Positions 1 through 5,728 of a stretch of 5,728 nt of DNA are shown one piece after another. The stretch comes from Candidatus Altarchaeum sp. (GTDB lineage: Archaea; Altiarchaeota; Altiarchaeia; Altiarchaeales; Altiarchaeaceae), in assembly GCA_018260755.1 (NCBI GenBank), contig JAGTWP010000018.1, positions 1 to 5,728 on the forward strand, in the 5' to 3' direction. Under the pieces are notes generated by a model that saw nothing but the letters and a program-made list of their open reading frames with translations, did no database searches and was not told the origin of the DNA. The position numbers and the translations under genes were made by a program. The first letter of the stretch is position 1. Every line of letters starts with the position of its first letter.

Positions 1-2
1 TG

Positions 3-80
3 AGGTTCAAAAAACTGAGCGTGAAAAAGTTAATTTATGATGGGAAGTTGGGTTACAGTAAGCGATGCAAAAAATATTGA
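3..80 (+). CDS. Possible 3' end of a rightward gene cut by the window edge
   Basis: From base 3 a plus-strand frame stays open for 25 codons to a TGA at 78-80; it reads R-F-K-K-L-S-V and ends in C-K-K-Y. A second frame starts at ATG 37 or ATG 40 and ends at TAA 94-96, giving a short peptide ending I-E-I-I-D-E. A third frame closes at TGA 38-40. None of these is long enough to recognise, so I cannot say which, if any, is a real C-terminus. The segment would run convergent to the membrane-protein gene that ends at 110. No function is proposed. Confidence 0.25.
   Translation, partial: RFKKLSVKKLIYDGKLGYSKRCKKY
69..74 (-). terminator. Candidate T-tract terminator of the membrane-protein gene
   Basis: Read on the minus strand there is a run of six T about 35 bases beyond the TAG stop of the membrane-protein gene. 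Archaeal transcription often ends at such U-rich tracts without a hairpin. The region is AT-rich throughout, so a run this long could occur by chance. Confidence 0.25.
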
Positions 81-109
81 AATTATTGATGAATAATTCC
101 TAAAAGAGT

Positions 110-1615
110 CTAAAAAAGCTTAAAAATACATTTCTTTATTTCAGTTAAATTTTCATTTTCACAATTGCAGGAATAAACATAATCAACGGTGTTATTGAGC
201 AAAAATTCAGTATTATTACATTTATCTGCCAAAAATTTATCCCCTGATTCACAATAAGACAGCATTTTGCTTGGGCCGGTTGGAAAATATGAATATGTTT
301 TTCTTTCTGCAAAAATTGCCAAGCCCTTGCTTTTCCAGCTGTCTGCCAAAATTGTTGAATTTTTCGGAGTATTTTCCTTCATCCATATAAAATTTTCGTA
401 ATCAAAACCATCTGCACTCATGATTTGATAATATTGATAAGGATTGTGCTTCGGCAGTTGCTCATATATTGAAAGAGAAATTAAAAGAATAACAACAACA
501 ATTCCTACCCTAAAAAATTTTCCCCTGAATTTCAAAATTTCATAAACACCCATTGCTGCACTTATTGAAAGAAGTATTGAAATGTAAATATAGATCCTTC
601 CGAAAGGAAACAGGAAAATTTTTTGAAAGAAAATATAAACAAGAAGGTCAATTAAAAGTAGCAACAATGAAAGCGGAATCAGTAAATTTTTCCTGTAAAT
701 TAAAAAAAATATTCCAATTCCAGCAAGCATTAGCGGAAATATTCCGAAGTAATTTGGAAAGTAAATTATATCGTCAAGATAACTCTGTTTTGCAAATGTC
801 CCTGCTTCAATACCTTTACTTAAAAGAGAAGGAAGGAACAATTGGCTCACTATAATAAAAGATATTGCCGATATTAACAAAATTTTTAAAATTTTTTTTC
901 TGTTTTTTTTCTTTTCTGATTTTAAATTTAAATGTGATGTCTTTAAATAGTTCCAGCCCAGCAAAATGACATAAGCGAGAATTATTGTCAAAACAGCAAA
1001 TCCGCTCGGAGGATGAAAAAGAAGTGATATAGAAATTAGCGGAACAAACGGAATTAAATTTTTAACCGATGAGTCCCTTTCAAATCTGTCTATCAGAAAA
1101 AGAACACCAGGAATCGCTATAAATGAAATATTTACAGGGACGATAAATTTCTCCCCCAAAAAACCCACCGTTGTCGGAATTAATGCAATAAGTATAATTG
1201 CCACAAGTGCGGCAATTTTTGAGAATCGTCTTAAATAAATGTATGTTATTATCATTGAGAAGATTGAAAATATTACAGGAATAAATATTGCATTACTCAT
1301 TTTCATATTCGTAAGAAGAAAGATTTCAGAAAGGAAGATGTGATGGCCGATTTCCATATCATTTTGCTGAAATCTTCCAGTTGGGTCTGTTAAATTATTA
1401 ATGCCTTCTTTTTCCACAATTTGTTTTGCCGTTTCCAAATGCATATATTCATCAACATGCAAAGGATAAGGATAATACAAATGCGGAGAGAAATTTAAAA
1501 TTAATGCAAATAGTATGGTTAATACAATAATACCGCAGATAATAAGCAAATTTTTTCTTTCTCTCATTTTAGAATTTACAGGAAATTCTGAAATGTCCGA
1601 ACGAAGTGAGGTCAT
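110..1615 (-). CDS. Polytopic membrane protein, probable GT-C-type glycosyltransferase
   Basis: Integral membrane protein of 501 residues from the ATG at 1615. I see about 11 hydrophobic helices (roughly 23-41, 108-128, 134-151, 158-176, 189-200, 203-219, 243-263, 288-306, 309-331, 337-359, 368-383), then a soluble C-terminal domain (about 385-501). The basic loops RRFSK, the lysine-rich stretch at 233-241, YRKN and KFRGKFFR all fall on one side, which puts the first long loop and the C-terminal domain outside. That first loop carries H-V-D-E-Y (D55, E56), the acidic motif position typical of GT-C enzymes, which move sugars from polyprenyl-phosphate donors to lipids or proteins. The outer tail has four N-X-S/T sequons and five cysteines. 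Family membership is inferred from topology and this motif; donor and acceptor are unknown. A TTG at 1642 (510 aa) and an ATG at 1567 are alternative starts. I prefer 1615 because AT-rich promoter-like DNA lies at the right distance upstream. No SD is visible. Confidence 0.6.
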   Translation of the reverse strand: MTSLRSDISEFPVNSKMRERKNLLIICGIIVLTILFALILNFSPHLYYPYPLHVDEYMHLETAKQIVEKEGINNLTDPTGRFQQNDMEIGHHIFLSEIFLLTNMKMSNAIFIPVIFSIFSMIITYIYLRRFSKIAALVAIILIALIPTTVGFLGEKFIVPVNISFIAIPGVLFLIDRFERDSSVKNLIPFVPLISISLLFHPPSGFAVLTIILAYVILLGWNYLKTSHLNLKSEKKKNRKKILKILLISAISFIIVSQLFLPSLLSKGIEAGTFAKQSYLDDIIYFPNYFGIFPLMLAGIGIFFLIYRKNLLIPLSLLLLLIDLLVYIFFQKIFLFPFGRIYIYISILLSISAAMGVYEILKFRGKFFRVGIVVVILLISLSIYEQLPKHNPYQYYQIMSADGFDYENFIWMKENTPKNSTILADSWKSKGLAIFAERKTYSYFPTGPSKMLSYCESGDKFLADKCNNTEFLLNNTVDYVYSCNCENENLTEIKKCIFKLF

Positions 1616-1636
1616 TTTAAATTTTGTGATTTTGTA

Positions 1637-1664
1637 GTTCAATAATAATTAATATTCTTATACA
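1637..1664. promoter_or_regulatory. Divergent AT-rich promoter region between the membrane protein and dnaJ
   Basis: The two divergent genes are separated by about 70 bases of almost pure A/T. On the plus strand CTTATACA (1657-1664) lies 22-29 bases before the dnaJ ATG, close to the TATA position expected for a leaderless or nearly leaderless archaeal transcript. On the minus strand a weaker TTAATTATT-like stretch (about 1641-1651) lies 26-36 bases before the ATG at 1615. Both promoters must fit in this space, so factors bound here could affect both genes. I see no CIRCE-like or other clear heat-shock operator. Confidence 0.4.
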
Positions 1665-1685
1665 ATTATTGTAAGAGTGCAAAAA

Positions 1686-2822
1686 ATGAATGAAAAGGAC
1701 TATTATAAAATTTTAGGTGTTAATAAAAATACAACAAAGGATGACCTTAAACAGGCATACCGGAAGCTGGCAATGCAGTATCATCCTGATAGATCGCCCT
1801 CTGATAAAAAGAAGGAATATGAGGAAAAATTTAAAGAAATAAGTGAAGCGTATGCTGTATTAAGCAATGACGATAAAAAGGCACAATACGATAGAGTAGG
1901 AAGTGCAGGAATGGGAAATGCCAGTCAGGAAGATATATTCAGGAATGCTGACTTCAGCGACTTTCAGGATGTATTTTCGGGTTATGGCGGAGGTTTCGGA
2001 AGCGTTGATGAAATTTTTAAAGGCGTTTTTAGAGGAGGAATGGGCAAACAAAGATCCGGATATGAAACAGGAGGAGATACAGGTGAGGATCTGGAATATA
2101 CTTTATCGGTAAATTTAAAGGAATCTGCTTTCGGAACAGAAAAGGAAATAAGATTTTTTCATAATGCCAAATGCAAGGTCTGCAATGGAACCGGGAGCAA
2201 AGACGGAAGCAGAACGGTCTGTGACAAATGTCACGGAAGAGGAGCTGTACAGATACATAGAAGGGCTGGTTTTATAACCTTTACAAGCGCCCAGACCTGC
2301 CCAAAATGTCATGGAACCGGGGTCATAATTCAAAGTCCCTGTTGGACATGTCACGGAACAGGAAAGGTAAAAGAAGAGGCAAAGGTTAAGGTAAGGGTTC
2401 CTGGCGGGGTAAATACCGGAGATAATTTAAAAATGACCGGATATGGTAATTACGGTGCGGATGGATCAGGTGATTTATATATAAAAATTAATGTCACGGA
2501 TGATAATTTCTTCAAAAGGAAAGGTGATAATATTTACTGTAATGTAAAGATTCCTTTTACTTTGGCAATATTAGGTGGAAAGATAGAGGTTCCGACACTT
2601 CAGGGAACTGCCTCATTAAATATTTCAGAAGGAACGCAGCCGGGAACGACATTACGGATGAAGGACCTGGGGATTCACAACGAAATGAGAAACCACACAG
2701 GAGATCAGTTTGTTGTTGCAGAAATTGAAATTCCGAAAGGTCTGAATGAAATGCAGAAAAAATTGCTGATTGAGTTTGATGAAGAAATGAAAAAATCAAA
2801 AAACAAATTTAAATTTTGGTAA
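1686..2822 (+). CDS. dnaJ: Chaperone protein DnaJ (type I Hsp40)
   Basis: Cytoplasmic co-chaperone that binds unfolded proteins and stimulates the ATPase of DnaK (Hsp70). All parts of a type I J-protein are present: an N-terminal J domain with the HPD motif at 33-35, a Gly/Phe-rich segment around 95-120, a zinc-binding region with four CxxCxGxG repeats (163-170 CKVCNGTG, 179-186 CDKCHGRG, 205-212 CPKCHGTG, 219-226 CWTCHGTG), and two C-terminal substrate-binding beta domains. At 378 residues it is a normal length for the family (E. coli 376), with no gap or frameshift. A GTG at 1677 would add three residues. The ATG at 1686 is preferred because it puts HPD at 33-35, as in E. coli DnaJ, and suits the TATA-like box at 1657-1664. 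dnaK and grpE are not next to it. Archaeal DnaJ proteins are generally regarded as acquired from bacteria. Identification is secure. Confidence 0.96.
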   Translation: MNEKDYYKILGVNKNTTKDDLKQAYRKLAMQYHPDRSPSDKKKEYEEKFKEISEAYAVLSNDDKKAQYDRVGSAGMGNASQEDIFRNADFSDFQDVFSGYGGGFGSVDEIFKGVFRGGMGKQRSGYETGGDTGEDLEYTLSVNLKESAFGTEKEIRFFHNAKCKVCNGTGSKDGSRTVCDKCHGRGAVQIHRRAGFITFTSAQTCPKCHGTGVIIQSPCWTCHGTGKVKEEAKVKVRVPGGVNTGDNLKMTGYGNYGADGSGDLYIKINVTDDNFFKRKGDNIYCNVKIPFTLAILGGKIEVPTLQGTASLNISEGTQPGTTLRMKDLGIHNEMRNHTGDQFVVAEIEIPKGLNEMQKKLLIEFDEEMKKSKNKFKFW

Positions 2823-2863
2823 AATTATCAAGTATTAGACTCGCAAAATCATACTTTCAAAAG

Positions 2864-2917
2864 AATATAACAAAAATCAGTTGGATATTTTTGCCAAAAT
2901 AGAGAAAAAATTGAGGT
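2864..2917 (+). promoter_or_regulatory. Putative promoter and Shine-Dalgarno site of the DUF429 gene
   Basis: The 105-base gap after dnaJ contains AATATAAC (2864-2871), a possible TATA box. It also contains GAGGT (2913-2917), ten bases before the ATG at 2928 and complementary to the ACCUC of the 16S rRNA 3' end. If transcription starts 25-28 bases after the TATA-like element, the message would have a leader of about 30-40 bases including this SD. The SD supports ATG 2928 as the start. The TATA assignment is weak because the gap is AT-rich throughout. Confidence 0.4.
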
Positions 2918-2927
2918 TCTTTAAACA

Positions 2928-3473
2928 ATGAAATTTGTAGGTATTGACCTTGCAGGAACAGCGAAACATGCTACCGGATTTTGTATTTTAACCGCATCGG
3001 ATTTTGAGGGTGATAAATTTGCTGAAACCAAAATTTTAAGTACAGACAAAGAAATCATTGAAGAAACAAAAAAAGCAAATCCTGAAATAATAGCAATAGA
3101 TGCACCATTGAGCAAAGGAAACCGAAAATGCGATTATGATTTAAAAATTTACGGAGCGTTGCCTTTGACTTTAAAGAGTATGGAAATTCTGGCAGAAAGG
3201 GGAATAAAAATAAGCAGCGATTTAAGAAAAGAAAATTTTAATGTTATTGAGGTCTTTGCAACAGGTAGTGCAAAAATTTTGGGCTTTCACAATAAATCAA
3301 GAGAAGTTGAACAAAAAGAACTGATGAAGGTAATTAAAGGTATTGACAAACGACTGTTGAAAAAGGACGAGATAGATGCGATTTTTTGTGCGATAACCGC
3401 TTACTTGTATTATTTTAGCAAAACAACAGAGGTTGGAGACGAAACAAAAAAAGTTGTAATACCTAAAATTTAA
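2928..3473 (+). CDS. DUF429 family protein, predicted RNase H-fold nuclease-like
   Basis: Soluble protein of 181 residues resembling the DUF429 family, whose members are predicted to have an RNase H-like fold; their biological role is not established. The expected strand-associated acidic motifs are visible: GIDLAG at 5-10 (D7), AIDAPLS at 56-62 (D58), IEVFATG at 107-113 (E108), and DEIDAIFCA at 147-155 (D147/D150). These could form a metal-binding acidic cluster. The middle stretch G-N-R-K-C-D (64-69) fits the conserved Arg-x-Cys-Asp segment I associate with this family. It has no signal peptide or membrane segment. The start is fixed by the GAGGT SD ten bases upstream. The gene lies 105 bases after dnaJ and 77 before the aminotransferase, so it is probably transcribed alone or with partial read-through. 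No substrate can be named. Family assignment is by motif recognition, not alignment. Confidence 0.75.
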   Translation: MKFVGIDLAGTAKHATGFCILTASDFEGDKFAETKILSTDKEIIEETKKANPEIIAIDAPLSKGNRKCDYDLKIYGALPLTLKSMEILAERGIKISSDLRKENFNVIEVFATGSAKILGFHNKSREVEQKELMKVIKGIDKRLLKKDEIDAIFCAITAYLYYFSKTTEVGDETKKVVIPKI

Positions 3474-3484
3474 AATTTAAAATT
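3464..3484 (+). repeat. Three exact copies of TAAAATT across the DUF429 stop codon
   Basis: The heptamer TAAAATT occurs three times in perfect tandem. The second copy supplies the DUF429 stop (TAA at 3471-3473). Because the period is seven, the three TAA triplets fall in three different frames. This is probably a small slippage product in AT-rich DNA, but it closes every forward frame. Confidence 0.7.
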
Positions 3485-3515
3485 TAAGAATCAATTTAAA
3501 TTTATGTAAAATTAA

Positions 3516-3523
3516 TTTATAAA
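3516..3523 (+). promoter_or_regulatory. TATA box of the aminotransferase gene (probably leaderless)
   Basis: TTTATAAA, preceded by A-rich bases that could act as a BRE, ends 27 bases before the ATG at 3551. There is no purine-rich SD between them (the last bases before the ATG are ACAACACA). The distance matches archaeal TBP/TFB-directed initiation at or within a few bases of the start codon, so the message should be leaderless or nearly so. Confidence 0.6.
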
Positions 3524-3550
3524 CATTGATTAAAATTTATTTACAACACA

Positions 3551-4648
3551 ATGGAAAAACCAAAATTATTTTCGGTAGGTCCTGTATATGTTAATGAAAA
3601 AGTCAGGAACGAAATGAGCAGACAAATGTTCAGCCACAGAAGCAATACATACAGAGAACTGCACTCGTCTTTAGTGCAAAAACTGAAGAGATTGATGAAA
3701 ACAAACAACGAAATTTTAATATTCGCTTCTTCGTCAAGCGGAATTATGGAAGCATGTGCCAGAAATTTAGTCAAAGATCATGAAAAAGTGCTTTGCCTGT
3801 CCTGCGGTGCATTCGGAGAGAGATTCGGAGAAATTTTTGAATTAAATGGCAAAAATGTAAAAATTTTAAGAAAGGAGTGGGGGAAGGCAAATTTACCCGA
3901 TGAAGTAGATAAAGCATTATCCGAAGATAATTATGCTGTTGTTACACTTATTCATAACGAAACATCAACAGGGCTTATGAATCCTTTAAAAGAAATTTCA
4001 AATGTTGTGAAAAAGCATGATGCGTTGTTTGTTGTTGATACTGTTTCTTCAATGGGTGGGGCAAATGTAGATGTTGATGATTACGGAATTGATGTTTGTC
4101 TTTTCGGAAGCCAGAAGTGTTTGGCAACACCCCCAGGCATAGCGATAGCCAGTGTAAGTGAAAATGCCTTAAATAAAGCGAAGGATGTTAAAAATAAGGG
4201 ATTTTACTTAAATTTTGAAATTTTAAAGAAGTCAAATGATAAAAATGAGACGCCTGTAACCCCTCCGATTCCGCAGATGTTTGGAATGAGCAAGTCCATT
4301 GACTTAATATTTGAAGAAGGACATGAAAATGTTATTGAAAGGCATAAAAATATTTCAAAATTTGTCAGAGATAGAGTTAAAGATATAGGCTTTGAAATTT
4401 TTCCCGATGAAAATTTTGCATCGCAAACGTTAACCTGTGTTAGTTTTGAAAATTTTAAGAAGGTCTACAACAAGTTTGATGTAAAAATTATGAATGAAGA
4501 AATGAAAAAAAAAGGCTTTATTCTGGCAAACGGTTACGGAAAGATAAAGGACAAAACATTCAGAATAGGAAATATGGGAAATGTTATGATGGATGATGTT
4601 ACAGAAATGTTAGACAATTTGGAGGAAGTTGTGAAGATGTTCAAATAA
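3551..4648 (+). CDS. Class V PLP-dependent aminotransferase (serine/alanine-glyoxylate or phosphoserine/aspartate type)
   Basis: Cytoplasmic pyridoxal-phosphate enzyme of 365 residues, full length for the small class V aminotransferases that include serine-glyoxylate, alanine-glyoxylate and archaeal broad-specificity aspartate/phosphoserine aminotransferases. Visible motifs are LFSVGPV at 6-12, SHRSNTY at 28-34, the phosphate-binding SSSSG at 60-64, HNETSTG at 135-141, DTVSSMGG at 163-170 (D163 expected to pair with the pyridine nitrogen), GSQKCLATPPG at 186-196 with K189 as the expected Schiff-base lysine, TPPIPQ at 237-242, and a C-terminal FRIGNMG at 337-343 (R338 expected to bind the substrate carboxylate). 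All key residues are intact. Specificity cannot be settled from sequence: serine synthesis from phosphohydroxypyruvate, glyoxylate/alanine exchange and aspartate transamination all remain possible. It faces the MtdA-like gene tail to tail, which favours a serine/C1 link by inference. The ATG is supported by the TATA box 27 bases upstream. Confidence 0.88.
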   Translation: MEKPKLFSVGPVYVNEKVRNEMSRQMFSHRSNTYRELHSSLVQKLKRLMKTNNEILIFASSSSGIMEACARNLVKDHEKVLCLSCGAFGERFGEIFELNGKNVKILRKEWGKANLPDEVDKALSEDNYAVVTLIHNETSTGLMNPLKEISNVVKKHDALFVVDTVSSMGGANVDVDDYGIDVCLFGSQKCLATPPGIAIASVSENALNKAKDVKNKGFYLNFEILKKSNDKNETPVTPPIPQMFGMSKSIDLIFEEGHENVIERHKNISKFVRDRVKDIGFEIFPDENFASQTLTCVSFENFKKVYNKFDVKIMNEEMKKKGFILANGYGKIKDKTFRIGNMGNVMMDDVTEMLDNLEEVVKMFK

Positions 4649-4729
4649 CCGGTAATGATAAAATTTAATATTTAAACCAAAATTCAATATTGGGAAAGAT
4701 TAAAATACATAAAATCGTTACAAAATATC

Positions 4730-4775
4730 ATTACATATTTATCACTACCGCTATTACATATTTATCACTACTGCT
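4730..4775 (+). repeat. Head-to-tail 23-bp tandem duplication in the convergent gap
   Basis: Two directly abutting 23-base copies (4730-4752 and 4753-4775) begin ATTACATATTTATCACTAC and differ at one base (C versus T at position 20). They lie between the convergent stops of the aminotransferase and the MtdA-like gene, outside any believable coding region. Two adjacent copies are too few for a CRISPR array and there is no spacer. A recent local duplication is the simplest explanation; a repeated protein- or RNA-binding site is possible. Confidence 0.85.
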
Positions 4776-4780
4776 TTTTT
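4775..4780 (+). terminator. Candidate T-tract terminator of the aminotransferase gene
   Basis: Six consecutive T sit immediately after the duplicated 23-mer, about 127 bases past the aminotransferase stop. This fits U-tract termination in archaea and would prevent read-through into the opposing gene. There is no convincing hairpin. Confidence 0.3.
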
Positions 4781-4788
4781 CAATTCCG

Positions 4789-4802
4789 AAAAATTTCAAA
4801 AA
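4789..4802 (-). terminator. Candidate T-rich terminator of the MtdA-like gene
   Basis: On the minus strand two runs of five T (opposite A-runs 4789-4793 and 4798-4802) begin 12 bases after the TAA of the MtdA-like gene. Closely spaced T tracts just past a stop are typical of archaeal terminators. Together with the plus-strand T6 they would end transcription from both sides within about 30 bases. Confidence 0.35.
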
Positions 4803-4814
4803 TTTGCTCAAAAT

Positions 4815-5690
4815 TTATTCAAACGCCGCCGCATATATATCCTCAAGTTTTAGTATATTTCCCTTTTTCTCAAATAACTTTCTTATTATTGCCTTTTGTG
4901 CCTTATTCTTTATTGTTCCTATTTTAAGTGCTCCAATTCCAATCCTTCCCTCAATCTCTTTACAGTCGTCATTTGCTTCAACCCCTTCAATTCCGTAAGG
5001 AGGATACGCATTAACATCTGCCAGAATTTTAACAAAACTATACTTACTCCAGATCGCTTTACTTATCAGTGTAATTTTCGGAGGGCCTGTTGTTACGATT
5101 ATATTCGGCTTAAAGTCCTCAATTACCTTAATTGTATCTTCATCGCTTCTTACTTCATACGCTTTTATGTCTGCATTATAAACTTTCCTTACTTTATCAA
5201 TTGCCTCTATTGCTCGGTCTAATTTTCTTGATGTTACCGCAACATCTACTCCTTCCTTTATGAGTAATGCGGCAATTCTTAATCCGACGGGACCTGTTCC
5301 GGCAAAGACAATTGCCTTTTGTCCGCTCATATCAATGCCTTTTTTGGTATATGTTTCCTTAATTTTGTATACACATCCAGCAGCAGTTGTATTTGAACCG
5401 TCCGTATCTGCAACAATTGATACCCTGAATGGATTGAACATCTGCTTAACTGCAATTTCTATCATTTCATCACCTTTTACAACATCATGCCCTCCGATAA
5501 ATATTGCCGTATTTATCAAATCCTTCGGACTTCTCGGAAATATTATGTCATTCACAAGTGCGGGAATTTCTTCGGCAGATACATTCACATAAGGCACAAC
5601 TGCAACATCTTCAACAGCATCATATGCCTCTATAATGTCAAACGGGCTTGCGTGTTTTTCCATACTTATATAAAACAATATCTTTTTCAT
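4815..5690 (-). CDS. NAD(P)-dependent methylene-tetrahydromethanopterin dehydrogenase (MtdA/MtdB family)
   Basis: Soluble enzyme of 291 residues that oxidises methylene-tetrahydromethanopterin (possibly also methylene-tetrahydrofolate) to the methenyl form, reducing NAD(P), or runs in reverse. It matches the Methylobacterium MtdA/MtdB pattern along its length: MKKILFYIS then SPFDIIEAYD at 16-25, IGGHDVVKGD at 65-74, PFRVS at 87-91, DTDGSNTTAAG at 95-105, the Rossmann motif AGTGPVG at 130-136, TSRKLDRA at 153-160 (where the cofactor ribose or 2'-phosphate is bound), ADVNAYPPYGIEG at 224-236 and GIGALKIG at 251-258. Length is normal for the family and no motif is broken. The ATG at 5690 is chosen because it aligns with the MtdA N-terminus; ATG 5663 would cut the first strand. 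This family is unrelated to the F420-dependent Mtd of methanogens. MtdA (NADP, both pterins) and MtdB (NAD or NADP, H4MPT only) cannot be separated here by eye, so no symbol is given. Confidence 0.9.
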   Translation of the reverse strand: MKKILFYISMEKHASPFDIIEAYDAVEDVAVVPYVNVSAEEIPALVNDIIFPRSPKDLINTAIFIGGHDVVKGDEMIEIAVKQMFNPFRVSIVADTDGSNTTAAGCVYKIKETYTKKGIDMSGQKAIVFAGTGPVGLRIAALLIKEGVDVAVTSRKLDRAIEAIDKVRKVYNADIKAYEVRSDEDTIKVIEDFKPNIIVTTGPPKITLISKAIWSKYSFVKILADVNAYPPYGIEGVEANDDCKEIEGRIGIGALKIGTIKNKAQKAIIRKLFEKKGNILKLEDIYAAAFE

Positions 5691-5716
5691 CTTGGTGTTT
5701 TTATCTGAATTTTATC

Positions 5717-5724
5717 TTTTTAAA
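5717..5724 (-). promoter_or_regulatory. Possible TATA box of the MtdA-like gene
   Basis: On the minus strand TTTAAAAA lies 27-34 bases before the ATG at 5690, and no SD-like purine stretch is found between them (the last bases are AACACCAAG). The spacing is that of a leaderless archaeal transcript and matches the aminotransferase arrangement. The A/T richness of the flank and the window edge limit confidence. Confidence 0.4.
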
Positions 5725-5728
5725 TTTT

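Follow-up and report, generated by a model that had tools for sequence, protein, structure and literature searches.

The gene at positions 4815-5690 on the minus strand of the window (the whole stretch of 5,728 nucleotides analysed here) very probably encodes the NADP-linked methylene-tetrahydromethanopterin (methylene-H4MPT) dehydrogenase of a Ca. Altiarchaeum, taking the place of F420-dependent Mtd in a methyl branch that works without F420 and supplies both CdhC and biosynthetic C1 pools. The observation stands, but it is already known, as the same replacement was published for the genus between 2014 and 2016. The replacement of F420 enzymes in Ca. Altiarchaeum was reportedly put forward in 2014 by Probst. 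According to a 2015 review (PMC4500143), NAD(P)H enzymes of kinds found in methylotrophic bacteria or in anaerobic oxidisers of methane have taken over from the F420-requiring dehydrogenase and reductase of Ca. A. hamiconexum, and Bird (2016) placed an NADP-dependent methylene-H4MPT dehydrogenase, probably bacterial in origin, in the core of the Altiarchaeales (PMC4975002). The gene described here comes from another genome of the same genus, and shares with the Ca. Altiarchaeum hamiconexum enzyme the family and the inferred role in an F420-independent H4MPT Wood-Ljungdahl branch, with no substantive difference. This further Altiarchaeum genome, together with its class, confirms that F420 is dispensable for an archaeal H4MPT methyl branch in which the dehydrogenase is NADP-linked and the reductase is of the MetF type. 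The electron carriers that couple CO2 reduction to energy metabolism are thereby changed in these abundant subsurface archaea.

Identity and architecture of the gene

The open reading frame starts with ATG and runs unbroken through 291 codons, while the plus-strand translation of the same interval contains 8 stops; the sequence-only reading had named no strand. The following features were assigned.

4815-5690, minus strand: mtdA-type gene, 291 aa, NAD(P)-linked (probably NADP) methylene-H4MPT dehydrogenase (open reading frame, Pfam PF09176, PDB 1lu9/6tge/6tlk, alignment, residue table, trees)
5403-5645, minus strand: N-terminal Mpt_N domain, residues 16-96 (Pfam match, window coordinates by conversion)
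5283-5300, minus strand: GTGPVG dinucleotide-binding loop, residues 131-136 (sequence; conserved or nearly so across the family)
5226-5228, minus strand: codon of Arg155, after beta-2 of the Rossmann domain, a putative contact to the 2'-phosphate of NADP (residue table)

The protein matches Pfam Mpt_N (PF09176) at 1.2e-24 with 86.6 bits against a cut-off of 27, and it aligns end to end (residues 2-289, E ~5e-58) with the PDB entries of Methylorubrum extorquens MtdA (1lu9/6tge/6tlk). Against NCBIfam, only weak short-chain dehydrogenase matches far below the cut-off were obtained. The architecture is that of MtdA, with an Mpt_N domain followed by a Rossmann domain over about 290 aa and a full-length match. 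The family motifs GTGPVG (131-136), SRK (154-156), DVNAYPPYG (225-233) and K261 are all present; when 18 relatives are aligned, 29 columns show no variation, among them D225, N227, K261 and parts of the GTGPVG loop. Orthologues with 92-94% identity occur in three genomes of the same genus. Collectively, the gene is intact and named correctly at the family level, and the sequence-only reading, which had claimed the full motif set of the NAD(P)-linked MtdA/MtdB family, agrees with the open reading frame, Pfam, PDB and motif results.

MtdA of M. extorquens AM1 is about 40% identical over its full length and has the same motifs, the Arg after beta-2 and the invariant Lys (K261 here). The two differ in their setting, since the host here is archaeal and lacks F420 genes, and the gene is linked to mch (and to fwd, ftr and metF in the class).

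Host and gene neighbourhood

The window covers bases 1-5728 of a 22,361-base contig from a 1.32 Mb genome that is 85% complete. PCNA, an archaeal-type mch, HisF, a class I tRNA synthetase and DUF166 are carried on the same contig (22.4 kb), and the closest named relatives, Ca. Altarchaeum HURL_140 and CG2_30_32_3053, belong to the same genus. The host is a member of the genus Ca. Altiarchaeum, a subsurface archaeon. PCNA, mch, the gene order conserved in the genus and the named relatives rule out bacterial contamination of the contig. The archaeal setting suspected from the letters alone is therefore real, and the contig did not prove bacterial.

Directly upstream of mtdA on the same strand, beyond the window, lies mch (L030:6090-7016; PF02289, 4.5e-67), and this pair is kept in 4/4 genomes of the genus. 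A related single-contig genome (G012) holds genes with FwdA, FwdB, Ftr, FwdC and Mch features together with mtdA in one cluster, and a metF-type gene lies 6-633 bases from mtdA in eight other class members. In G012 a BRO-N domain gene (L165:9709-10593) separates mch from mtdA in the otherwise continuous C1 gene cluster.

Several minor features were observed around mtdA. The class-V aminotransferase at window positions 3551-4648 is of the PhnW/BhcA/pyridoxamine-pyruvate type and scores below all NCBIfam equivalog cut-offs; a serine-cycle link through this gene was dropped, as it is convergent with mtdA and lies near it only within the genus. The 181-aa protein at 2928-3473 appears DUF429-like by eye, has no match in Pfam or NCBIfam, and occurs at the same place in another genome, G003. 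Copies of the mtdA 3' end, 25-54 codons long, follow the gene in two Altiarchaeota (L032:8156-8293 in G003 and L036:9676-9843), and a further one lies on a separate contig of G026 (G026:C22:3703-3777); the mtdA of the window has no such copy. The insert at the mtdA 3' end of G003 contains a small hydrophobic open reading frame. These repeats suggest recombination or integration at this end of the gene.

A probable F420-independent methyl branch

F420-dependent Mtd (PF01993), which carries out the same chemical step with an unrelated protein family, was found in 0/29 genomes of the class, and the same count was obtained for Mer and for CofD, the one gene by which F420 synthesis was searched; control genomes gave the expected matches for all three. 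In a host genome that is 85% complete single absences are weak, and the class-wide pattern is strong. The host genome holds ftr, mch, metF with metV, cdhC, the H4MPT-synthesis gene for beta-RFAP synthase, SHMT and FolD. Within this set, ftr adjoins SHMT, and CdhC (acetyl-CoA synthase), MetF, a MetV-type domain and ThyX share one 8.8-kb contig. Fwd was seen only in relatives within the class; the host genome presumably encodes it as well.

Both marks of the Altiarchaeum-type branch are seen: Mtd, Mer and CofD are absent, and ftr, mch, a MetF-type reductase, CdhC and H4MPT synthesis are present. Given this absence and the presence of mch, ftr and H4MPT synthesis, a pyridine-nucleotide-linked, F420-independent methylene-H4MPT step is the natural reading. 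The sequence-only reading had proposed such a step for an archaeal host and had named a complete F420-dependent mtd/mer set as counter-evidence; with neither Mtd nor Mer in any of the 29 genomes, the proposal is well supported by genome content. The 'F420 dehydrogenase' listed in the Altiarchaeales core by Bird (2016; PMC4975002) fits poorly with the absent F420 synthesis.

In the proposed branch, Fwd, Ftr and Mch would act upstream, the window enzyme would interconvert methenyl-H4MPT+ and methylene-H4MPT by direct hydride transfer with NADP(H) in place of F420-dependent Mtd, and a MetF(V)-type reductase would stand in for Mer, so that methyl groups would reach acetyl-CoA synthase (CdhC) and biosynthetic C1 pools. 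The hydride mechanism is suggested by analogy with MtdA structures. NADP as the preferred cosubstrate, H4MPT as the pterin and a net reductive direction are all likely for the window enzyme, and the direction follows a proposal published for the genus.

Across the class, mtdA occurs in 20/29 genomes, mostly those that also have mch and ftr. Its co-occurrence is marked both with mch (18/2/1/8, p = 9e-5) and with ftr (p = 2e-4), by statistics that ignore phylogeny. CdhC was detected in only 7/20 mtdA-bearing members, which means that not every member couples the gene to acetyl-CoA synthesis. Outside the genus, no CdhC was found in 12/16 mtdA-bearing members, most of which have ftr, mch and metF in their incomplete genomes, suggesting that the H4MPT branch in such members is not used for acetyl-CoA synthesis.

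Carbon fixation, biosynthetic supply or oxidation

The 13/20 mtdA-bearing members in which CdhC was not found also bear on the role of the enzyme. It may serve mainly to supply biosynthetic C1 units, converting methylene-H4MPT or methylene-H4F to formyl units or back with little carbon-fixation flux, a task that MtdA has in methylotrophs with the serine cycle. The host's own genome carries FolD and SHMT, the latter beside ftr, in line with such a role; the presence of FolD indicates that H4F is probably in use as well. MtdA of methylotrophs is active on both pterins (PMC9012536), and catalysis by the window enzyme with NADP+ and either methylene-H4MPT or methylene-H4F is predicted from its sequence. 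However, CdhC, MetF and MetV lie on one short contig of the same genome, and the strong 13C depletion of Ca. Altiarchaeum lipids has been read as autotrophy (PMC4500143). We consider a mainly biosynthetic role unlikely for this host, and prefer the methyl branch that feeds both CdhC and the C1 pools.

An enzyme running oxidatively as in methylotrophs, with formaldehyde or methyl groups passing towards CO2 and yielding NADPH, is improbable. The steps are reversible and the family is best known from oxidative pathways, but no methylotrophy genes came up incidentally in the stretches read, and publications propose autotrophic reduction (PMC4975002, PMC4500143).

Placement relative to MtdB and cosubstrate

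In the tree, the window protein groups with MtdA and the proteins of Altiarchaeota and Theionarchaea at 100/99, and MtdB forms a separate clade with 100/100 support. The MtdB rows are five plasmid-borne sequences, four from annotated NAD(P)-dependent genes close to mch and one from an unannotated record. MtdB from the plasmids of Azoarcus, Azospirillum, Aquabacterium and Phyllobacterium belongs to the same superfamily (Mpt_N), yet at the position of the Arg after beta-2 it carries other residues, together with an insert of one residue. This Arg (R155 here) is present in all MtdA and archaeal rows and in 0/5 bacterial MtdB rows. As Arg155 is kept in this way, the enzyme probably prefers NADP, with the Arg side chain as a likely contact to the 2'-phosphate. 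An MtdB-like, NAD-preferring dehydrogenase is very improbable, as the shared superfamily and the position of bacterial MtdB beside or near mch are outweighed by the placement with MtdA (100/99) and by an Arg155 that 5/5 MtdB rows lack. Of the label 'MtdA/MtdB' given before, the MtdA half stands on the tree and Arg155, and no grouping with bacterial MtdB appears in the tree or the residue table.

Origin of the family

Outside the class mtdA is rare (9/365 sampled archaea). The tree, which is unrooted and samples the closest 80 genome hits plus five plasmid loci, places the bacterial MtdA-clade rows (23-30 sampled) on one side of a branch supported at 99-100%, as a clade separate from the window type. 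The altiarchaeal proteins fall outside it; they are thus not descended from within the sampled bacteria, and this sample does not demonstrate the transfer from bacteria to archaea that has been published. The description 'bacterial-type' suits the best-known members of the family, but the archaeal proteins do not nest in the bacterial MtdA clade.

Approximately unbiased (AU) tests permit more than one arrangement of the altiarchaeal groups relative to Theionarchaea and bacterial MtdA. They did not separate one origin of the altiarchaeal proteins from several (p = 0.10), nor did they reject a grouping in which bacterial MtdA joins the window type and the other Altiarchaeota are left out (p = 0.165). 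The published transfer direction is not overturned by the trees. It is conceivable, though doubtful, that the family goes far back within archaea, where Altiarchaeota, Theionarchaea, Ignisphaera and two families with a fused version carry it, and that methylotroph MtdA came from an archaeal line, the reverse of what was published. Two observations open the direction of this ancient transfer to testing, namely that F420 synthesis is missing across the class and that the archaeal sequences fall outside the bacterial MtdA clade. Fused proteins occur in two further archaeal families, f20 (L019, L153-L155) and f58 (L157, L161), where a domain of about 250 aa stands N-terminal to the MtdA-like one; scans of two such proteins gave no Pfam match for this extra domain.
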